DNA of 37,374 nt, from NCBI GenBank assembly GCA_001776785.1, contig MFDF01000002.1:70894-108267 (forward strand), written 5' to 3'. Below, in pieces: positions 839 through 30,846 of this stretch; position 1 is the first letter of the stretch; each line of letters opens with the position of its first letter. Position numbers and translations under genes: made by a program. A model generated the notes under the pieces. It searched no databases, was not told the DNA's origin, and worked only from the letters and a program-made list of their open reading frames with translations. The stretch is from Candidatus Daviesbacteria bacterium RIFCSPHIGHO2_12_FULL_37_16 (lineage in GTDB: Bacteria > Patescibacteriota > Microgenomatia > Daviesbacterales > UBA10151).

Positions 839-2219
839 CATTACCTCTTTAACTCTAACTCAAACAATTGCTGCTCTGGATGAAAAAAAATTTTCTGAAG
901 AAGAGTTGAACAATGCATATCTGGAGAGAATTAAGAAATTAGATCCTAAACTAAATGCTTTTTTAGAAATTAATGAAAAATCTAATAAAATTCCTGCTGC
1001 TATTAAGTCTTTAATTTCTACAAGAGGGTTGAAAACATCATCTGCTTCCAAAATAATTGAAAATTATAACCCCCCGTTTAATGCAACTGTAATTGGGAGG
1101 TTATTAGACAAGGGAGTGTCAGTTATAGGAAAAACTAACCAGGATGAGTTTGCTATGGGGTCATCTGGGGAAAATTCTGCATTTGGTTCAACTAAAAATC
1201 CCTGGGATTTAATAAAAGTCCCTGGAGGGTCCTCAAGTGGGTCTGTTGCTGCAGTAGCTGCAGATTTAGCTGTTTTTGCATTAGGAACTGATACAGGTGG
1301 TTCTATCAGACAACCTGCCTCTTTATGTGGAGTAGTTGGTTTTAAACCTTCTTATGGAAGGGTTTCTAGGTATGGGGCAATTTCTATGGCCTCATCTTTA
1401 GACCAGATAGGACCAATTGGGAAGAGCGTAGAGGATGTGAGGCTGATATTGGAGTGGATTCAGGGACCAGATGGATTTGATAGTAATTGCCAACCAAGCT
1501 CACACCTCCGAGGTGCGACTAGGGTTGCGGCAGACGCACACCTCGGAGGTGGACTTAATGGGGTTAAGGTTGGGGTGCCGAAGGAGTATTTTGCCGTGCC
1601 TGCCGGCAGGCAGGGTGAAGGGTTAGATAGTGGTGTAGAAAAAGTTGTAAAAGATGCAATAAAAGAGATGGAAGAGTTAGGGGCTGAAATTGTTGAAATA
1701 AGTTTGCCAAATACCCAGTATGCAGTTGCAGTTTATTACATCATAATGGCTTCTGAGGTTTCTTCTAATTTAGCCAGGTTTGACGGGATAAGGTTTGGAG
1801 GAGACAGAAGTTTGTTTGGAGCAGAGCCAAAAAGAAGGATAATGCTTGGAACTTTTGCACTTTCCACTGGATACTATGATGATTATTACAATAAAGCTGC
1901 AAAAGTTAGGACTTTAATAAAAAAGGATTTTGAAAAAGCTTTTGAAAAGTGTGATGTGATAGTTGGACCTGTTTCTCCAACTGTAGCCTGGAAGTTAGGA
2001 GAAAAGATTTCTGATCCACTAACAATGTATCTATCTGATGTTTATACAATTCCTGCATCTTTAGCTGGAATCCCAGGGCTGTCTGTACCAGCTGGATTTA
2101 GTGAGGGGATGCCTGTGGGAGTGCAGATTCTGGGTAAATATATGGATGAGGAAACTATTTTAAATGTGGGCGAAGTTTTAGAAAAAGCACTAGACATAAA
2201 GGAGAAACCTAAATTATGA
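831..2219 (+). CDS. gatA: Asp/Glu-tRNA amidotransferase subunit A (amidase)
   Basis: GatA is the glutaminase of GatCAB, releasing ammonia from glutamine for transfer to misacylated tRNA. The amidase signature is intact: a catalytic Lys in VIGKTNQDEFAMGSS, then GGSSSGSVAAVAADL and GTDTGGSIRQPAS carrying the two serines of the Ser-cisSer-Lys triad. I prefer GTG 831 because an AGGGG sits about 10 nt upstream; TTG 825, two codons earlier, has a spacing of only about 4 nt. Two stretches have no counterpart in ordinary GatA. About 20 residues at 1495-1553 are encoded by an inverted repeat, and VPAGRQG at 1597-1615 is encoded by a perfect 16-bp palindrome. Both lie around the GVKVGVPKEYF motif, away from the catalytic residues. 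The stop overlaps the next gene by 4 nt. Confidence 0.97.
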   Translation: MSDITSLTLTQTIAALDEKKFSEEELNNAYLERIKKLDPKLNAFLEINEKSNKIPAAIKSLISTRGLKTSSASKIIENYNPPFNATVIGRLLDKGVSVIGKTNQDEFAMGSSGENSAFGSTKNPWDLIKVPGGSSSGSVAAVAADLAVFALGTDTGGSIRQPASLCGVVGFKPSYGRVSRYGAISMASSLDQIGPIGKSVEDVRLILEWIQGPDGFDSNCQPSSHLRGATRVAADAHLGGGLNGVKVGVPKEYFAVPAGRQGEGLDSGVEKVVKDAIKEMEELGAEIVEISLPNTQYAVAVYYIIMASEVSSNLARFDGIRFGGDRSLFGAEPKRRIMLGTFALSTGYYDDYYNKAAKVRTLIKKDFEKAFEKCDVIVGPVSPTVAWKLGEKISDPLTMYLSDVYTIPASLAGIPGLSVPAGFSEGMPVGVQILGKYMDEETILNVGEVLEKALDIKEKPKL

Positions 2220-4186: not shown

Positions 4187-7100
4187 ATGAGTCGATTTGT
4201 TCATCTACACACTCACACTGAATATTCGCTTCTTGACGGGCTTTCAAAAATTCCCAAACTGGTAAAGCAGGCAAAAGATTTAGGTATGGACAGTTTGGCA
4301 ATTACTGACCATGGGGTTATGTATGGAGCGCTGGAATTTTACAAAGTTTGTAAGGAAGTAGGTATTAAGCCAATTATTGGCTGCGAAATGTATGTGGCAC
4401 CCAGGTCTCACAAAAGTAAAGAAGGAAAGGTTGATAGTGAGCCTTATCATTTAACTGTCTTGGCTAAGAATTACCAGGGATACTTAAATTTAATGAAACT
4501 TTCCTCAATTGCCCATTTGGAGGGTTTTTATTACAGACCAAGGGTTGATAAGGAACTTTTAAAAGAATACTCTGAAGGGTTAATTGCTTTATCAGGCTGT
4601 CCTGCTGGAGAGTTTATTAGAAGCCTGGATTCAAAAGATTTAACAAAAGCAGAAGAGGTAGCTAAAACTTATTTAGAAATTTTTGGAGAAGGGAATTATT
4701 ATCTGGAGATCCAAAACCATTTTTATTCTGACTACATTAAAGATCCAAACTTAGATCCAACTGTCAGACAAGATCTTCAGAACATGGGACTTTTACAGGA
4801 GATTACCTGGGTTGCAGCAAAACAAATTTCAGAAAAACTTGGGATTCCAATTGTGGCAACAAATGATCTGCATTATGTTAAAAAAGAGGATGCAGAGGCA
4901 CAGGATGCGCTGCTTTGTATCCAAACTGCTAAATTTTTATCTGATATCCAGAGATTAAGGATGATTGATACCCCTAACCTTTATTTAAAATCTCCTGAAG
5001 AGATGGCGGAAGCATTTAAGGAGGTCCCAGAGGCTTTAGAAAATACAAATAAAATAGCTGAAAAGGTAAACCTGGAAATTCCTTTGGGAAACCCAAGGTT
5101 TCCAATGTTTGATATTCCAGAAAATGAGTCACAAAGTGCCTCTTCTGCTTCGCAGAAAAAAAAGCCATTTGAGTATTTAAAAGAGTTAACTTTTGAAAAA
5201 GCAAAGGGAAGATTTGCACTTAGTGAAGAAAGGATTCAAAGATTAGAATATGAACTTTCTGTAATAGAAAAGAAAAATTATGCAACTTATTTTTTGGTAG
5301 TTTCAGATTTTATGAGTTGGGCTAATGAACACGGAGTCATTACTAATACCAGAGGATCAGCTGCAGGCTCTTTGGTTTTATATGCTCTTGGGGTGACTGA
5401 TATTGACCCAATTTTTTATAAATTACCTTTTGAAAGATTCTTAAATCCCTTTAGACCAAGCCTGCCTGATATTGACTGTGATTTGGCTGATGACAGAAGG
5501 GATGATGTTATCAGGTATGTGATGGATAAGTATGGTGAAGATAAAGTTGCCCATATTGTGACTTTTGGAACAATGATGGGAAGGGCTGCAATCAGGGATA
5601 TTGGCAGGGTAATGGCAATTCCATATGGAGAGGTAGACAGGATTGCCAAACTTGTACCTCCGCCCCACCAGGGATTTCACAAGCCTTTGTCAGACGCTAT
5701 TAAAGAAGTACCAGAACTTAATGATCTATATAAATCAGACCCCCAATACAGAAAACTTTTGGATTTAGCAATAAAGGTTGAGTCTACAGTTAGACATGCT
5801 TCAGTCCATGCTGCAGGGATTGTAATTGCACCTGAACCTTTAACAAACTTTACTCCACTACAAAAGGAGGCTAATGGGGATAAAGTGGTAACTCAATATG
5901 ACATGTTTGGAGTTGAAGAGGCTGGACTTGTAAAGATGGATTTCTTGGGGATTAGAAACCTGTCTATTTTAGGCAGGTCTATTGAATATGTGAGGAATAA
6001 CAAGGGAATAGAGATTGATTTGCAAAAGATTCCCCTGGACGACAAAAAAGCTTTTGCATTACTCGGACGGGGTGAGACAATGGGACTTTTTCAACTAGAA
6101 GGAGGAGGAATGACTAAATATTTAATGGATCTTAAACCAACTACAATATTTGATATTTCTGCTATGGTTGCATTGTACAGACCTGGACCACTACACATTA
6201 TTCCTGAATATATTGATAGAAAACATGATCCTTCTAAAATTTCCTATTTTGATCCAAGGATGAAAGAATATTTAGAAAGATCATTAGGGCTTTTGGTTTA
6301 TCAGGATGATGTATTGCTGACTGCCATTAATATTGCAGGTTATTCATGGGAAGAAGTAGATAAATTTAGAAAAGCTATGGGTAAGAAGATCCCTGCTGAG
6401 ATGGCTAAACAAAAGACCCATTTTATATCAGGCTGCATAAAAAATGGGATGAACCAAAAAAAAGCTGAAGAACTATTTGCTTTGATTGAGCCATTTGCAG
6501 CTTATGGGTTTAATAAAGCCCATGCTGCCTCATATGCTTTAGTTGCATACCAGACTGCTTACATGAAGGCTAACTATCCTGTTGAATTTATGGCAGCTGT
6601 AATGACTGCTGAATATGGGAATGCTGATAAAATTGCCCATGCAATTTCTGAGTGTAAAAAGATGGGAATAGTTGTATTGCCGCCTGATGTTAATTTCTCA
6701 AGTGTCGGATTTACAATTGAGGATTTAAAAGCTTTATCTGAGGAGGATTTAAATAGGCAAATTACAGACATAAATAATCAGGCCCCACTCCGCCAAGGCT
6801 CCGCGGGACAAGGTGTCAGGTTTGGCTTATCTGCTATAAAGAATGTAGGGATTTCTGCTATTGAGTCAATTATAAAAGCCAGAGAACAAAAATCTGTTGC
6901 GTCATTGTATGACCTTTGCTCAAGAGTGGATACACGGCTTGTTAATAAAAAAACTTTGGAAAGTTTAATTAAAGCAGGAGCTCTGGATTCTTTGGGATCA
7001 AGAGCTGCCCAGCTTTTAGTTTTAGACCAGTGCCTAGAAGAGGTTCATAAATCTAACAGAGCAAACTCTAATGGTCAGGCTTCTTTATTTGGTGAGGATG

Positions 7101-7780
7101 AGAGTTTTTCAGCCAGTATTACTTTACCTGAAGTCGAAGAACTGCCTTTGGATAGGTTGGTGGCATTTGAAAAAGATTTATTGGGTTTTTATCTTCATGA
7201 GCCGCCCTATGTAAAAAAGCTTAAAGGAATAGGCGGATATATTTCACATAGAATTTCTGAGATAAGTGAAGAGGTTTTAAAGCAAAAAGTAACTGTAGGA
7301 GGAGTAATAGTTGAATTAAAGAAGGTTTTAACTAAAAAAAATGCCGCAGAGATGGCTTTCTTAAAGCTTGATGATGGGGAGGGTGTAATTGAATGTGTAG
7401 TGTTCCCAAAGACTTTTGCGGAGAGCAAGCATTTTTTAGAAAAAGAAGAGGTTGTAATTATTACAGGAAAAGCTGATAGGAGAGAGGATGAGTATTCATT
7501 AATTGTGGATTCAATTTCAGTTTTTAATCCTGAAACTGCAGAAAGGTTTTTTCCCCAAACTGTGGTGGAGATTGAATTCCCAAGGGAGGCTGATAGTGAG
7601 GTTATGAAAAGAGTTAACAGTGCCATCAGACAGTTTCCCGGGGAAGTGCCAATTTCAATATTAATACCATCAGGAGCTTCTTTTAAGAAGCTTAATTTAA
7701 GTTTTACAGTTAATTTAGATGATGGGTTTATACAAAATGTAGAGGAGATTTTAGGTCCTGGTGCTGTAAGAGTCAGTTGA
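4187..7780 (+). CDS. dnaE: DNA polymerase III alpha subunit
   Basis: This is the replicative C-family polymerase, 1197 residues. The PHP domain opens with FVHLHTHTEYSLLDG and keeps ITDHG and NDLHYV, so metal ligands appear present and PHP proofreading is possible (inference). The polymerase core has NTRGSAAGSLVLYALG (about residue 385) and the catalytic aspartates in PDIDCDLADD (about 427). It also has AYGFNKAHAASYALVAYQTA (about 770) and a C-terminal OB fold from about residue 1000 (KVTVGGVIVELKKV). Two odd inserts are visible. SASSASQKKK is encoded over a TTCTGC-TTC-GCAGAA stem (5143-5157), and APLRQGSAGQGV is in a locally G+C-rich patch (about 6781-6817). Expression probably starts at TAGAAT 4078, giving a structured leader. 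Confidence 0.98.
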   Translation: MSRFVHLHTHTEYSLLDGLSKIPKLVKQAKDLGMDSLAITDHGVMYGALEFYKVCKEVGIKPIIGCEMYVAPRSHKSKEGKVDSEPYHLTVLAKNYQGYLNLMKLSSIAHLEGFYYRPRVDKELLKEYSEGLIALSGCPAGEFIRSLDSKDLTKAEEVAKTYLEIFGEGNYYLEIQNHFYSDYIKDPNLDPTVRQDLQNMGLLQEITWVAAKQISEKLGIPIVATNDLHYVKKEDAEAQDALLCIQTAKFLSDIQRLRMIDTPNLYLKSPEEMAEAFKEVPEALENTNKIAEKVNLEIPLGNPRFPMFDIPENESQSASSASQKKKPFEYLKELTFEKAKGRFALSEERIQRLEYELSVIEKKNYATYFLVVSDFMSWANEHGVITNTRGSAAGSLVLYALGVTDIDPIFYKLPFERFLNPFRPSLPDIDCDLADDRRDDVIRYVMDKYGEDKVAHIVTFGTMMGRAAIRDIGRVMAIPYGEVDRIAKLVPPPHQGFHKPLSDAIKEVPELNDLYKSDPQYRKLLDLAIKVESTVRHASVHAAGIVIAPEPLTNFTPLQKEANGDKVVTQYDMFGVEEAGLVKMDFLGIRNLSILGRSIEYVRNNKGIEIDLQKIPLDDKKAFALLGRGETMGLFQLEGGGMTKYLMDLKPTTIFDISAMVALYRPGPLHIIPEYIDRKHDPSKISYFDPRMKEYLERSLGLLVYQDDVLLTAINIAGYSWEEVDKFRKAMGKKIPAEMAKQKTHFISGCIKNGMNQKKAEELFALIEPFAAYGFNKAHAASYALVAYQTAYMKANYPVEFMAAVMTAEYGNADKIAHAISECKKMGIVVLPPDVNFSSVGFTIEDLKALSEEDLNRQITDINNQAPLRQGSAGQGVRFGLSAIKNVGISAIESIIKAREQKSVASLYDLCSRVDTRLVNKKTLESLIKAGALDSLGSRAAQLLVLDQCLEEVHKSNRANSNGQASLFGEDESFSASITLPEVEELPLDRLVAFEKDLLGFYLHEPPYVKKLKGIGGYISHRISEISEEVLKQKVTVGGVIVELKKVLTKKNAAEMAFLKLDDGEGVIECVVFPKTFAESKHFLEKEEVVIITGKADRREDEYSLIVDSISVFNPETAERFFPQTVVEIEFPREADSEVMKRVNSAIRQFPGEVPISILIPSGASFKKLNLSFTVNLDDGFIQNVEEILGPGAVRVS

Positions 7781-10377: not shown

Positions 10378-10451
10378 GCCGCGTTCGTCTAGTGGCCCAG
10401 GACGTCGGGTTTTCATCCCGAAAATCACGGGTTCGACTCCCGTACGCGGTA
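10378..10451 (+). tRNA. tRNA-Glu (UUC)
   Basis: Acceptor GCCGCGT (10378-10384) pairs with ACGCGGT (10444-10450), with a G-U at the first position; the discriminator is A10451. The anticodon arm is TCGGG-TTTTCAT-CCCGA with anticodon TTC, and the T-arm is ACGGG-TTCGACT-CCCGT. CCA is not encoded. The last 15 tRNA bases plus three more are repeated exactly at 10563-10580. Confidence 0.95.
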
Positions 10452-10580
10452 CTTGCAAAAATTATTGGTCCTTGTGACCATCAATTTTGCAAACCTGTAT
10501 TTGGGAGAGAACTGAAATCTTTGATTTGGTTCGTTAGTCCGATGTATATCGGACTAGGATATCTCCCGTACGCGGTACTT
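10452..10580 (+). repeat. tRNA-Glu-associated unit ending in a copy of the tRNA 3' end
   Basis: Directly after tRNA-Glu come a long hairpin (10453-10492, outer arms TTGCAAAAATT/AATTTTGCAA, inner TGGTC/GACCA) and a conserved core ATCTTTGATTTGGTTCG (10517-10533). A perfect hairpin AGTCCGAT-GTAT-ATCGGACT (10536-10555) follows, then an exact 18-bp copy of CTCCCGTACGCGGTACTT (10563-10580; original 10437-10454, offset 126). The copied segment begins in the T-loop. GGGAGA at 10503 can pair with TCTCCC at the start of the copy. The tRNA-Lys unit has the same architecture. Confidence 0.85.
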
Positions 10581-10582
10581 AT

Positions 10583-10654
10583 GGCCCGATAGCTCAGCGG
10601 TAGAGCAGGAGCCTTTTAAGCTCTTGGTCCTCGGTTCGAATCCGAGTCGGGTCA
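10583..10654 (+). tRNA. tRNA-Lys (UUU)
   Basis: Acceptor GGCCCGA (10583-10589) pairs with TCGGGTC (10647-10653), with one G-U; the discriminator is A10654. The D-arm AGCTCAGCGGTAGAGCA is standard, the anticodon arm is GGAGC-CTTTTAA-GCTCT (anticodon TTT), and the T-arm is CTCGG-TTCGAAT-CCGAG. CCA is not encoded. It starts 2 nt after the tRNA-Glu-associated unit, and its own 3' end is repeated exactly at 10767-10782. Confidence 0.95.
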
Positions 10655-10782
10655 CATTTAAATATTTGGGAATATTTTTCCAAATATTTAAATTTAGCTG
10701 CCACAGGGATTTAAAGCAGATCTTTGATCTGGTTCGCCTTTTTGACGAAGTCAAAATGGGTGTGTTATCCGAGTCGGGTCAC
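10655..10782 (+). repeat. tRNA-Lys-associated unit ending in a copy of the tRNA 3' end
   Basis: After tRNA-Lys there is a perfect 14-bp stem (10656-10669 with 10680-10693, 10-nt loop), then the core ATCTTTGATCTGGTTCG (10720-10736), which differs from the tRNA-Glu unit at one base. A small hairpin TTTGAC-GAA-GTCAAA follows, then an exact 16-bp copy of ATCCGAGTCGGGTCAC (10767-10782; original 10640-10655, offset 127). The first stems and the small hairpins differ in sequence between the two units, but spacing and order are the same. Confidence 0.85.
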
Positions 10783-24747: not shown

Positions 24748-24860
24748 TGAGGTCGCTCACCAGATCATAAAGTACCGTTCGGGCCGAATCCCTCACTGTT
24801 GGTTCGCAAGTTATCGGGCAACTGCATAACTTGCTCACCGACTACTTTATTGATTCTGGT
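24748..24860. repeat. Nested palindromic element in the uvrB leader
   Basis: GTGAG/CTCAC (24748-24760) forms a first hairpin. Arms at 24759-24774 (ACCAGATCATAAAGTA) and 24843-24860 (TACTTTATTGATTCTGGT) enclose about 70 nt. Inside are TTCGG-GC-CCGAA and a perfect GCAAGTTAT (24806-24814)/ATAACTTGC (24826-24834) stem. The open frame leading into uvrB crosses this block, but the translated part is not UvrB-like. Confidence 0.8.
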
Positions 24861-24891
24861 TTCGCGCCCTTTGCTAAACGAATGCAAATAT

Positions 24892-26943
24892 ATGATATTT
24901 AAACTAAGTTCTATATTTAAACCAACAGGAGATCAGCCTCAGGCAATTGAGAAGCTTGTAGCTGGTCTTAAAAATAATGAAAAACACCAGGTTTTGCTTG
25001 GTGTAACAGGCAGTGGGAAAACTTTCACTATGGCTAATGTGATCCAGAAAATTAATAAGCCAACCCTGGTTATTTCCCATAATAAGACTTTAGCAGGACA
25101 GCTGGCCCAGGAGTTTAGGTCTGTTTTTCCTGAAAATGCTGTTGAGTATTTTGTATCTTATTATGATTATTACCAGCCTGAAGCTTATATTCCCCAGTCA
25201 GATACTTATATAGAAAAAGAGACTGATATTAATGAGGAGATAGAAAAATTAAGGCTTTCTGCCACAACCTCTTTAATGATCAGGAAGGATGTGATAGTAG
25301 TGGCTTCTGTGTCAGCAATTTATAACTTAGGTTCTCCTGCAGAATATGGTGGAGCAGTTTTGGACTTAAAACAGGGGGTGAGGATAGCTTTTGAGTCTAT
25401 ACTGAAGATGCTTCAAAAAATGTATTACGTGAGAAATGATATAGACTTTAAAAGGTCTACCTATAGAGTTAAGGGGGATACTATTGATATTTTTCCAGGA
25501 TATACAGATTCTGCAATAAGAGTTGAGTTTTTGGGAGATAAGATGGAGAGGGTTTCACATTTAGATCCTTTGACAGGAGAGATTGTCCCAACGCCCCAAA
25601 CTATTCAGATTTTTCCAGCAAAGCACTACATTACCCCTGAACAAAGAATGAAACCTGCTATTACTCAAATTGAGGAAGATTTAGAGATAAGATTGAAAGA
25701 GCTAAGAGCAGAAAATAAATTGCTGGAAGCCCAAAGAATTGAGCAAAGGACAAATTATGATTTGGAAATGATAAAAGAGTTTGGATACTGTAATGGGATT
25801 GAGAATTACTCAAGATATTTTGATGGAAGGCAGCCTGGGGACCCACCATATACCTTAATAGACTTTTTCCCTAAAGATTATTTATTGATTATTGATGAGT
25901 CTCATATAACCCTCCCACAAATTAGGGGTATGTACAATGGGGACAGATCAAGAAAAGAAACTTTGGTGGATTTTGGTTTTAGGCTTCCTTCTGCTTTGGA
26001 TAACAGGCCCCTAAAGTTTGAAGAGTTTCAGAGAAGAATTAATCAGGCTGTTTATGTTTCTGCCACACCTGATGAGTATGAGCTTTCTTTAGCAGGAGGT
26101 TATACACTGGATCACACCCCGGGGGTGTCATCTCAGGATTCATCCAAGACTCACCCCCGGGGTGAGCAAAGGGAGCTTGGGAAGAATGTGGCTCAGCAGT
26201 TAATTAGACCAACAGGGATTGTTGACCCAAGCATTACTATTAAACCAACAGAGGGACAAATACCTGATGTGATGGAGGAGGTGGCAAAAAGGACAAACAG
26301 GGGTGAGAGGGTTTTGATAACAACTTTGACCAAAAGAATGGCTGAGGATTTATCTGATTATCTAAAAGAAAAAGGGGTAAAGGTGGAGTATTTGCATTCT
26401 GATGTGGAGACTCTAAAAAGATCTGATATTTTGCAATCATTAAGACTTGGAGAATTTGATGTACTGGTAGGGATTAATCTTTTAAGGGAGGGGCTGGATT
26501 TACCTGAGGTTTCACTGGTAATAATTTTAGATGCAGATAAAGAGGGTTTTTTAAGGTCAAGGACTTCTTTGATCCAAACCATGGGTAGGGCTGCAAGGCA
26601 TGTTGATGGAGCAGTAATAATGTATGCAGATAATGTAACTAAATCTATGAAAGCTGCAATTGAGGAAGTAGATAGGAGAAGAGAATACCAGACTAAATAT
26701 AATGCAGAGCATGGGATTACTCCAAGAAGTATAGAAAAAGAGCTCAGGGATAGATTAATAGAAAAGATGGAGGAGATAGAAGAAGAAAAGGGAGTTAAGA
26801 TTTTGTCTGTTGATGATATTCCAGAAAAAGATAAGGGAAAGATGATAGAACTTTTAGAAAAGGAGATGAAAGAAGCAGCAGCACTCCTAGATTTTGAAAC
26901 AGCAGCTAGAATTAGAGATCAGATTAAAGAGTTAAGCAGTTAA
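24892..26943 (+). CDS. uvrB: Excinuclease ABC subunit B
   Basis: UvrB is the damage-verifying helicase-like subunit of nucleotide excision repair. The start ATG 24892 gives the normal N-terminus ([20 protein letters not shown]). Walker A is [10 protein letters not shown], the DNA-clamping beta hairpin has [15 protein letters not shown], the DEAD-like box is IIDESH, motif [12 protein letters not shown], motif [17 protein letters not shown] and motif [11 protein letters not shown]. The C-terminal UVR domain ([20 protein letters not shown]) binds UvrC. An extra segment of about 20 residues ([20 protein letters not shown]) at 26111-26168 is encoded by two related CACCCC-GGGGTG palindromes and sits between motif III and the IRPTG block. 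The protein has 683 residues. Confidence 0.98.
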
Positions 26944-27766: not shown

Positions 27767-27919
27767 ATGGCTTCAAACGACAAAATAATCATAAAGGGTG
27801 CGAGACAACATAATCTTAAAAATATAAGCACCTGCTCACACCTCAGTATGGAATATTATACTTCGTGTTCGCAGAAGCTTGCCTTTTTCAAACTAGTCAT
27901 TAACAAGGAGGAATTGTGA
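27767..27919 (+). pseudogene. Leader ORF: decayed second 5' end of uvrA
   Basis: ATG 27767 opens a 50-codon frame whose first 21 residues, MASNDKIIIKGARQHNLKNI and S, align with the true UvrA N-terminus SIDKIVIKGARENNLKNV. After that the similarity ends, and the frame runs through an imperfect inverted repeat (CTGCTCACACCTCAGTAT near 27832 against ATACTTCGTGTTCGCAG near 27859). The TGA stop overlaps the uvrA GTG (GTGA at 27916-27919), so the two are translationally coupled. An AAGGAGG for uvrA lies inside the end of this ORF. It may be a relic of an older uvrA, now possibly a leader peptide. Confidence 0.8.
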
Positions 27920-30846
27920 GCATAGATAAAATAGTAATCAAGGGTGCTAGAGAAAATAATTTGAAAAACGTAGATGTTGAGCTTCCAAAGAACAAGTTAA
28001 TTGTCTTCACAGGTATTTCCGGCTCTGGTAAATCCTCTTTGGCTTTTGACACTTTATATGCAGAGGGACAGAGAAGGTATGTTGAATCTTTAAGCGCTTA
28101 TGCCAGGCAGTTTTTGGGAGTAATGGATAAGCCAGATGTAGATTTAATAGAAGGCCTTTCACCTGCAATCTCAATTGACCAAAAGAGTGCTTCACATAAT
28201 CCAAGATCTACTGTTGGGACTACTACTGAAATTTATGATTACCTTAGGCTTTTATATGCCAGGGTTGGTCATCCTCATTGTCCTGTTTGCGGGAGAGAAG
28301 TTTCCAGGATGAGTGTGGAGCAGATTGTAAGTCAAGTAATCAGTAGTCAGAGGTCAGAGGTCAGAAGAAAGCAAAAGAGGATTTTGGTGATGGCACCTGT
28401 AGTGAAAGACAGAAAAGGGGAGTTTTCAAATTTATTTGATGATTTAAGAAAAAAGGGTGTTTCAAGGGTTAGAATTGATGGACAGTTTAGGGATTTGGCA
28501 GAAGATTTTATGCTGTTAAAGAACAATAAACATACTGTAGATGCAGTGTTGGATAGGCTGGTTTTAGAAAAAAGTATCACGGGTAGAAAGGGTACCACGA
28601 GTACCACAGGGGATAATTCTGTTCTTTCAAGATTATCTCAGAGCATTGAAGCTGCATTAAAGCTTGGGGATGGGTCTGTAATTATCTCAGAGGTTTTGGA
28701 TGCATCTTTGGATTTTCCTGCAAACCCTAAAAAGCTTGAAGATCACCTTTATTCTGAGAGGTTTGCCTGTCCTGTAGATAATATTGCTTTGCCTGAAGTT
28801 GAACCAAGGATGTTTTCGTTTAATTCTCCTCATGGAGCGTGCAGCACCTGTCATGGGTTAGGGTCTCTTTTAGAAATAGACCCTGAAATGATATTAAATC
28901 CTATTTTATCCATTGCTGAGGGTGGAGTACTTCCTATGAGTAAGCTTGCAACAAATGAAACCTGGTACACAAGATTAATTGAGGCTGTTGGTAAGGAATA
29001 TAATTTTGACTTAAATACAAGGCTTGGCAATTTATCTGAGGATGCTAGAAAAGTTTTGCTTTATGGAGCGGGAGAAAAACAGTTTAATGTTGAAGGTAAA
29101 AACAGACAGGATAGATGGACCCATTTTAATTCAAATTTTGAGGGTTTGGTTACTAACTTAAAACAAAGATATGAGGAGACTGAATCTGATTGGGTAAAGG
29201 GTGAGATTGAGAAATATATGTTTAAAGAAGTCTGTCCAAAGTGCGGTGGTGCAAGGCTTAAACCTGAAGCTATGTCTGTGGATATAGATGGGTTAAATAT
29301 TGCTGAGGTTACCACCCAATCTATCAGGGAAGCATTGGAGTGGGTGAAGAAATTAAAAAGCCCGCTCTTGTCTGAAAGAGAACTAACAATTGCAAAACCT
29401 ATTTTAAAAGAGGTTACATCCAGACTACAGTTTTTGGTTGACGTAGGGCTTGATTATTTGACTTTGGATAGAGCTTCAATGACTTTGGCTGGTGGAGAAT
29501 CCCAAAGGATCAGACTGGCATCCCAGATTGGTTCTGGGCTTTCAGGAGTTTTATATGTTCTGGATGAACCTTCAATTGGGCTGCACCAAAGAGATAACAC
29601 AAGACTTATTGAAACTTTAAAGAGACTTAGAGATTTGGGAAATACTGTAGTGGTAAATGAACATGATGCAGAGACTATGGAGAATGCAGACTTTCTTTTA
29701 GAGATAGGTCCCGGGGCTGGGGAACATGGAGGAGAGATAATTTCATTTGGGACACCTGAGCATATTATGAAAGATCCAAAGTCCTTAACCGGAAAATATT
29801 TATCAGGTAAGAAAAAGATTGAAATAACTGGTGAACTAAAAAGACATGGAGAAAACCACAGGCTGGAGATTAAAGGAGCAGCTGAACACAACCTAAAGGG
29901 AGTTGATATTGAAATCCCATTGGGTAATTTAATAGCTGTAACAGGGGTTTCAGGATCAGGAAAGTCAACTTTAGTACATGACATATTATTTAAAGCGCTG
30001 TCCCAAAAGTTTTACAGGTCAAAAGAGAAGCCCGGGAGGTTTAAAGAATTAGTTGGGGTTGAGAATATAGATAAAGTAGTGATGGTTGACCAATCTCCAA
30101 TTGGAAGAACCCCAAGGTCAAATCCTGCAACTTATACAGGAGCTTTTACTTTTATAAGGGAGCTTTTTGCCAGCTCGCCTGAATCTAAAATTAAGGGTTA
30201 TGGACCTGGAAGATTCTCATTTAATGTTAAGGGTGGAAGGTGTGAGGTTTGTGAGGGTGAGGGACAGATCAAAATTGAGATGCAGTTTTTGCCTGATATT
30301 TTTGTGACATGTGAGGCCTGTGATGGAAAAAGGTATAACAGGGAGGCTTTGGATATTCATTTTAAGGATAAAAATATTGCAGAAGTATTAAGTATGACAG
30401 TTGAAGAAGCTTTAGAGTTTTTCAAAAACATCCCTCAAATCCACAATAAATTGAGGGTTTTAAATGAAGTTGGGTTAGGTTATATAAGGCTAGGCCAGTC
30501 TGCCACAACTTTATCTGGAGGTGAGGCTCAAAGGATTAAGCTGTCATCAGAGCTTTCTAAGAGACCCACAGGACACACACTTTATATACTAGACGAGCCA
30601 ACAACTGGTCTTCATTTTGCAGATATAGAAAGACTTTTAATGATTTTAAGAAGTTTAGTGGACATGGGAAATACTGTTTTGATTATTGAACACAACTTGG
30701 ATGTTATAAAAAATGCAGATTGGGTGATAGATTTAGGGCCTGAGGGAGGCTTGGGTGGAGGAAATTTAGTAGCAGAGGGGACACCAAAAGATATAGCAAA
30801 GATAAAAGAGTCTCATACAGGACATTATTTAGCTAAGATTATTTAA
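27916..30846 (+). CDS. uvrA: Excinuclease ABC subunit A
   Basis: UvrA is the dimeric ABC ATPase that first finds DNA damage. Both ATPase halves are intact: Walker A GISGSGKSSL and GVSGSGKSTL, ABC signatures LAGGESQRIRLAS and LSGGEAQRIKLSS, Walker B LYVLDEPSIGLH and LYILDEPTTGLH. Zinc-binding Cys pairs appear in HCPVCG, CSTCHG, CPKCGG, CEVCEG and CEACDG. GTG 27916 is preceded by AAGGAGG at ideal spacing. Two local inserts, SSQRSEVRRKQ (28340-28372, tandem AGTCAGAGGTCAG repeats) and TGRKGTTSTTG (28579-28611), are low complexity. At 976 residues it is slightly longer than the usual 940. Confidence 0.98.
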   Translation: MSIDKIVIKGARENNLKNVDVELPKNKLIVFTGISGSGKSSLAFDTLYAEGQRRYVESLSAYARQFLGVMDKPDVDLIEGLSPAISIDQKSASHNPRSTVGTTTEIYDYLRLLYARVGHPHCPVCGREVSRMSVEQIVSQVISSQRSEVRRKQKRILVMAPVVKDRKGEFSNLFDDLRKKGVSRVRIDGQFRDLAEDFMLLKNNKHTVDAVLDRLVLEKSITGRKGTTSTTGDNSVLSRLSQSIEAALKLGDGSVIISEVLDASLDFPANPKKLEDHLYSERFACPVDNIALPEVEPRMFSFNSPHGACSTCHGLGSLLEIDPEMILNPILSIAEGGVLPMSKLATNETWYTRLIEAVGKEYNFDLNTRLGNLSEDARKVLLYGAGEKQFNVEGKNRQDRWTHFNSNFEGLVTNLKQRYEETESDWVKGEIEKYMFKEVCPKCGGARLKPEAMSVDIDGLNIAEVTTQSIREALEWVKKLKSPLLSERELTIAKPILKEVTSRLQFLVDVGLDYLTLDRASMTLAGGESQRIRLASQIGSGLSGVLYVLDEPSIGLHQRDNTRLIETLKRLRDLGNTVVVNEHDAETMENADFLLEIGPGAGEHGGEIISFGTPEHIMKDPKSLTGKYLSGKKKIEITGELKRHGENHRLEIKGAAEHNLKGVDIEIPLGNLIAVTGVSGSGKSTLVHDILFKALSQKFYRSKEKPGRFKELVGVENIDKVVMVDQSPIGRTPRSNPATYTGAFTFIRELFASSPESKIKGYGPGRFSFNVKGGRCEVCEGEGQIKIEMQFLPDIFVTCEACDGKRYNREALDIHFKDKNIAEVLSMTVEEALEFFKNIPQIHNKLRVLNEVGLGYIRLGQSATTLSGGEAQRIKLSSELSKRPTGHTLYILDEPTTGLHFADIERLLMILRSLVDMGNTVLIIEHNLDVIKNADWVIDLGPEGGLGGGNLVAEGTPKDIAKIKESHTGHYLAKII

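Follow-up and report, generated by a model that had tools for sequence, protein, structure and literature searches.

The window, which is the whole 37,374-nucleotide stretch of DNA analysed here, comes from the 1.02 Mb genome of Candidatus Daviesbacteria bacterium RIFCSPHIGHO2_12_FULL_37_16, assembled in 27 contigs and designated G000. Its plus strand carries a tRNA-Glu(TTC) gene (10378..10452) and a tRNA-Lys(TTT) gene (10583..10655), both identified with ARAGORN and Rfam, and each is followed by a unit that ends in a copy of the 3' end of that tRNA. The neighbouring genes in the window are ordinary by Pfam and encode DNA polymerase III alpha, UvrB and UvrA (4187-7780, 24799-26943, 27916-30846). 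In the unit behind tRNA-Glu (unit 1, plus strand) a long hairpin, P0 (10453..10492), recognised from its fold and from a weakly terminator-like scan match, lies directly 3' of the tRNA. It is followed by the strand P1' (ACCTGTATTTGGGAGA, 10493..10508), complementary to the tail copy at 10562-10576 by its fold and by a permutation test over 26 units, and by the hairpin P2 (AACTGAAATC-TTT-GATTTGGTT, 10510..10533), defined by covariation and base-57 tracking and ending in the T-loop motif GGTTCG (10528-10533). The hairpin P3 (10534-10557), defined by covariation and per-position identity, and the junction GATAT (10558-10562) together occupy the place of A58 (10534..10562), and the unit closes with an exact copy of tRNA-Glu 59-C74 plus TT (10563..10580). 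Unit 2, behind tRNA-Lys on the same strand, consists of P0 (10656..10693; fold), a P1' strand (10699..10710; fold and permutation test) in which the only clear pairing, a weak one, is GGAT with ATCC of the copy, P2 (AAGCAGATC-TTT-GATCTGGTT, 10714..10736; covariation) ending in GGTTCG (10731-10736), P3 (10737-10759) with the junction GTGTGTT (10760-10766; together 10737..10766, covariation), and an exact copy of tRNA-Lys 59-C74 (10767..10782).

The repeats, their shared core and the hairpins between them had been reported in a first-pass annotation of the sequence, and all were confirmed when the coordinates were rechecked. The Glu tail at 10437-10454 (positions 59-C74 at 10437-10452) recurs as an exact 18-bp match at 10563-10580, the Lys tail at 10640-10655 (positions 59-C74) as an exact 16-bp match at 10767-10782, and the common core ATCTTTGATYTGGTTCG lies at 10517-10533 and 10720-10736, with no third site in the window at up to three mismatches. 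Both structured intervals fold far below dinucleotide shuffles (z -5.6 and -4.2, 0/200 each). The copies start in the T-loop as annotated, with the border now refined to tRNA position 59 and the block 59-74 sharp, and the RGTTCR ahead of the second hairpin is an additional piece of the T-loop of the same tRNA.

A covariance model of the P2-P3 core (R1), joined with a pattern scan, gave eight strong matches in G000 (E below 1e-8), including the two in the window. Seven of the eight lie directly 3' of a tRNA and end in the tail of that tRNA (Glu-TTC, Lys-TTT, Glu-CTC, Arg-TCT, Leu-CAG, Pro-GGG and Ser-TGA); the eighth is interrupted where its contig stops, and an Asn-like tRNA end lies on the other contig. 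The genome also holds a composite version at Lys-CTT and a reduced one at Leu-TAG. All eight strong units represent one P2 core behind different tRNAs, and another genus has a different P2 type. Many more units are carried by G031 and G033, members of the same family, where the hosts are Gln, Pro, Ser, Leu, Val, Gly, Cys, Arg, His, Asp, Lys and Met tRNAs. A second covariance model (R2) added units in G022, G023, G026, G060 and G061, and searches with tRNA-Glu found units in G058, G066 and G067 as well as a degraded unit in G059, which brings the family to about 40 units over ten genomes, including relatives among the Daviesbacteria and Microgenomates. Searching 380 genomes across the phylum with R2 yielded no true unit outside the family, and no unit is present at two weak matches there (L327, L328). 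Loci L215-L217, L219, L311, L315 and L099 were examined and contain no tRNA with a copy. An exact scan of genome and viral contigs for the 17-nt core returned mostly chance matches, and it did point to the Daviesbacteria relatives. Within a genus the presence of units is patchy, and most relatives have the same tRNAs without them. A covariance search thus retrieved further copies in the same genome and in relatives; the strong ones follow tRNA genes and, with few exceptions, carry the tail of the preceding tRNA. None of the outcomes that the first-pass annotation had named as refuting its claim occurred, and an assembly artefact is excluded because the units occur independently in about ten genomes.

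The borders of the copy were determined from a per-position identity profile of tRNA against copy in 27 units. Position 58 is identical in 6/27, which is chance level, position 59 in 22/27 and positions 60-74 in 24-27/27; identity falls to 15/27 at position 75 and to chance level (6-10/27) from 76 onward. C74 is retained in 26/27 copies and is encoded in 143/143 tRNA genes of G000, G031, G033 and G026. The full CCA is encoded in few of those 143 genes, and partial CCA is the rule (L223-L296). When the 16-nt tail (59-74) of 141 tRNA genes from four genomes was sought within about 220 nt downstream at two or fewer mismatches, 21/141 tRNAs had their own tail again, compared with 2/4798 control trials with the tails of other tRNAs. 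The inserts between tRNA and copy measure about 50-173 nt and the whole units, which are gene-free, about 100-190 bp. In the fetched DNA all exact copies lie within 173 nt downstream of their tRNAs, which indicates whole units and not the ends of larger islands, and no larger autonomous version with the same ends was found there. A sequence-independent copy test in other families of the class found a tail copy 99-141 nt downstream in 4/193 tRNAs (30 genomes), and in two of those four the fragment 54-74 is uninterrupted (G048, G435).

A sharp 16-bp block is what a retro-element or casposon-like insertion would leave as a target-site duplication if cuts were made at 58/59 and after 74, and casposases make duplications of 14-15 bp at tRNA 3' ends (PMC6977970); in a retro variant, a reverse-transcription stop at m1A58 would yield the same left border. 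This origin is nevertheless very unlikely. Cas1 was found in 0/9 genomes, reverse transcriptase is missing in 4/6 (none in G031, G033, G026 and G066; two pieces at contig ends in G000 and two in G058), and no terminal inverted repeats were recognised. The base at position 57 of the unit equals tRNA base 57 in 39/41 units (hand tally; Fisher 1.2e-8), which a duplication of 59-74 leaves unexplained, as it does the uninterrupted 54-74 fragments of G048 and G435. The m1A58 stop was dropped as the reason for the start at 59 because base 57 tracks the tRNA too.

The order of parts 3' of C74 is P0, P1', P2, RGTTCR, P3, junction and copy. P0 is a long hairpin and takes the terminator form of A-tract, GC hairpin and T-tract in several units, P1' is complementary to tRNA 59-73 with a looser middle, and P2 is of a short type, AAYYARATC-UUU-GATYTRGTT, or of longer types in other genera. 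The junction is GNGTRTT or GAYAT and takes, together with P3, the place of A58. In Rfam 15 only the tRNAs match at the gathering threshold, and relaxed searches added no meaningful match within the unit. Readings as a group I intron, hammerhead, HDV-type RNA or group II domain were set aside because the core motifs are lacking, Rfam being the formal test applied. A spliced T-loop intron was thought unlikely, since at Leu-CAG the acceptor stem has its better partner in the native tail, and inserted palindromes have destroyed some copies (His, Asp). In two such cases, L251 (G031 His) and L285 (G033 Asp), a GC-rich palindrome of the CCTGCC...GGCAGG type interrupts the copied tail at a common position.

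Some of these features agree with an RNA under selection. The inner part of P1, P2 and P3 covary above all 500 shuffles and all register shifts in alignments of 12 and 38 sequences, although the 38-sequence alignment was fitted to the covariance model and is biased toward it, and hairpins can also arise by templated mutation. Each P1' prefers its own copy over those of other units (summed -299.6 versus -243.8 kcal/mol, sd 12.9, 0/20000 permutations), a result that spans 26 units and is weak for single ones such as the Lys-TTT unit of the window. G-U exceeds A-C pairing in P2 and P3 by 29 to 6 (p ~1e-4), which points to the sense RNA, but one position supplies most of the count and the sequences, being related, are not independent. 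The main rival to the reading ranked first below, possible though doubtful, is a selected tRNA-trailer RNA, a predicted co-transcribed unit with a second acceptor/T-stem-like minihelix ending at N73-C74. Its role would lie in 3' processing, folding or surveillance of the tRNA; P1' would switch by strand exchange between pairing with the tRNA tail and pairing with the copy, and a protein bound to P2 would account for the uniformity of P2 in any one genome. The retention of C74 and the similar spacing at the few tRNAs in other families of the class agree with such an RNA. The patchy presence does not, some copies are mutated or palindrome-split (His, Asp), the remainder of the unit may be little transcribed where P0 is terminator-like, as it often is, and the palindromes of P3 and P0 are possible by templated mutation without selection. 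The first-pass annotation had offered as its alternative a trailer RNA whose copy competes for the acceptor strand of the tRNA. The trailer part survives on the covariation of P1, P2 and P3; the competition is not required, since the unit itself supplies an antisense partner for the copy.

Comparison of orthologous loci provided an empty site. The tRNA-Glu(CTC) of G058 is filled with a unit, and the corresponding loci of G064 and G026 are empty with homologous flanks on both sides, at this one locus and with a flank identity of about 70%. The nearest relatives of the G058 unit are found at tRNA-Glu(TTC) of G066 and G026; tRNA and unit of these two match each other at 91% over 159 bp and the DNA outside is not homologous; tRNA-plus-unit blocks may therefore also move whole. 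Tandem units occur at Pro-TGG of G033 and Cys of G031. An anticodon-loop version, with a hairpin and GTGTATT in place of A37, is present in the Lys-CTT remnants of G026 and G000, so that fragments start at the known crossover subsites in the T-loop (units) and in the anticodon loop (Lys-CTT remnants).

Other loci record the displacement of an older tRNA by a newer one. The tRNA-Leu(TAG) of G033 (L277:304-387) is nested in an older tRNA-Leu, with the 5' half of the latter upstream and its 3' half downstream; older tRNA-Val remnants lie 3' of tRNA-Val in G033 and G026, and displacement is also seen at Lys-CTT (G026, G000) and Ile-TAT (G064). The Glu-TTC tRNA of G067 is 100% identical to that of G026, yet its unit retains an older, different tail. 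Such loci agree with replacement scars, in which a foreign tRNA of the same isotype would recombine in within conserved loops, leaving the old 3' fragment downstream, and the unit would be the trailer of the incoming tRNA; phages bearing a whole replacement tRNA are known (PMC10865867). We regard this as an unlikely origin of the family, since replacement alone explains neither the common P2/P3 plan over many isotypes nor the antisense strand and the near-perfect identity of most copies. Several further observations concern these loci. The nested G033 tRNA-Leu(TAG) is bordered by the inverted repeat CAATTTGAAAC/GTTTCAAATTG. At L305 of G064 (about 1501-1700, minus strand) a complete tRNA-Ile within the inverted repeat CAAAATT/AATTTTG has the 5' half of another tRNA on one side and, on the other, a unit that closes with the tail of that other tRNA. 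A hairpin module, TTCGAAGTC...GACTTCGAAAACA, borders tRNA fragments in the L231:6881 region and in L241 between Leu-GAG and Val. The tRNA ahead of the broken unit of G000 (L220/L237, end of contig C6) is Asn-like at its 3' end and has an apparent group I intron 3' end (caagcaaatgagatagtcc...cacttg) in the anticodon loop. ARAGORN and the Rfam tRNA model detected no Asn or Met tRNA in G000, and more intron-containing tRNAs are therefore likely.

The explanation that we tentatively rank first is that the units are minimal, gene-free, non-autonomous insertion elements specialised on tRNA loops, which is somewhat short of probable. Insertion in the T-loop would leave a complete tRNA, then the element and then the displaced or duplicated 3' fragment (53-57 plus 59-74), in which A58 would be replaced by the P3 hairpin and GNGTRTT; the remnants with A37 replaced would be related products at the anticodon loop. 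By analogy, an arrangement of tRNA, insert and displaced 3' fragment, with subsites in the T-loop and the anticodon loop, classically marks an insertion of the integrase type (PMC4383910, PMC1762012). The observations comprise the anatomy, the 59-74 borders, the covariation, the many isotypes, the tandems and one filled/empty pair, and the copy, base 57 and the antisense strand all track the host tRNA. Three separate segments track the tRNA, which no single travelling tail can explain; the tail is therefore either generated from the target on insertion or kept in agreement with it by selection or conversion. This tracking, the small size and the common fold place a structure-guided non-autonomous element first, and the patchy presence, the known subsites and the sharp copy speak for it as well. 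Insertion would be enzymatic, and the enzyme would act in trans, perhaps that of a phage or a resident Xer-type recombinase. It would recognise the folded three-way junction of P1 (tail:antisense), P2 and P3, folding thus being required for movement, and recognition of structure rather than of one fixed sequence would allow the use of many tRNAs.

Several points weigh against an element, among them the single clean filled/empty pair and the possible movement of whole tRNA-plus-unit blocks. The copies remain near-perfect although P0 and P3 are almost wholly different from unit to unit, a contrast that suggests either selection acting on the copy or its repeated homogenisation. Ordinary attP/attB integration carries a fixed tRNA tail and would break a tRNA of another isotype, so a classical integrase would not easily shift one element between tRNAs of different isotype. 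Tyrosine recombinases number one to three per genome (one each in G000 and G033, two each in G031 and G066, three each in G026 and G058), with none inside a unit in these six genomes, and no element-dedicated integrase, reverse transcriptase or Cas1 was found. The minimal non-autonomous T-loop element proposed in the first-pass annotation is a plausible candidate, and the interpretation given there is partly supported.

The literature search, with most subscription journals outside its coverage, found no paper on such units, and the multi-copy family is apparently unnamed. With some reserve, we suggest that they might form an undescribed class, "tRNA-echo elements", which carry an antisense strand and a sense copy of the tail of the preceding tRNA and so permit strand exchange, and which would be either a mobile element guided by structure, with access to any tRNA loop, or a trailer RNA specific to its tRNA and bearing its own second acceptor-like helix. 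If mobile, they would be about the smallest tRNA-targeted element known to us, and their use of many isotypes would suggest that folded DNA or RNA, and not a single att sequence, is what is recognised; as a trailer RNA, they would represent a new layer of tRNA biology in what is the largest uncultured bacterial group. On either reading the class is thrown out by the length and integrase filters of current island finders, and relatives are directly searchable with the copy test.

Integron attC sites are recognised as a folded single strand, which permits variable sequence; by comparison, the units are without cassette genes, and no integron integrase was identified. Intrinsic terminators 3' of tRNA genes resemble P0 in some units and account for P0 only. 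Casposons likewise target tRNA 3' ends and make a duplication of about the same size (14-15 bp), but encode Cas1 and have terminal inverted repeats, neither of which was found here (PMC6977970). Phages of tRNA-dependent lysogeny supply a whole replacement tRNA on insertion into a tRNA, comparable to the G033 Leu and G064 Ile loci, but are large and do not involve the unit family (PMC10865867). In mycobacteriophage Ms6 the core is the 7-bp T-loop and single T-loop bases set the choice of tRNA, as base 57 of the units may recall; unlike the units, Ms6 is an autonomous phage using tRNAs of one amino-acid family and an uninterrupted core (PMC1762012). The integrases that target tRNAs cross over at the anticodon loop, the T-loop or the T/acceptor junction, and Islander discards candidates that are shorter than 2 kb or without an integrase (PMC4383910). 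The units are shorter than 2 kb and contain no integrase gene, their inserts being too small for one, and would not be listed there. The closest likeness in layout is to Islander-type islands and prophages, which have a complete tRNA, an insert and a displaced 3' fragment in the same orientation (PMC4383910), as 27 units do on the same strand, and which share the T-loop and anticodon-loop subsites and the tandem arrays; the units differ from them in their gene-free inserts of about 100-170 bp, in using many isotypes per genome, in their conserved fold and in the hairpin that stands in for A58.
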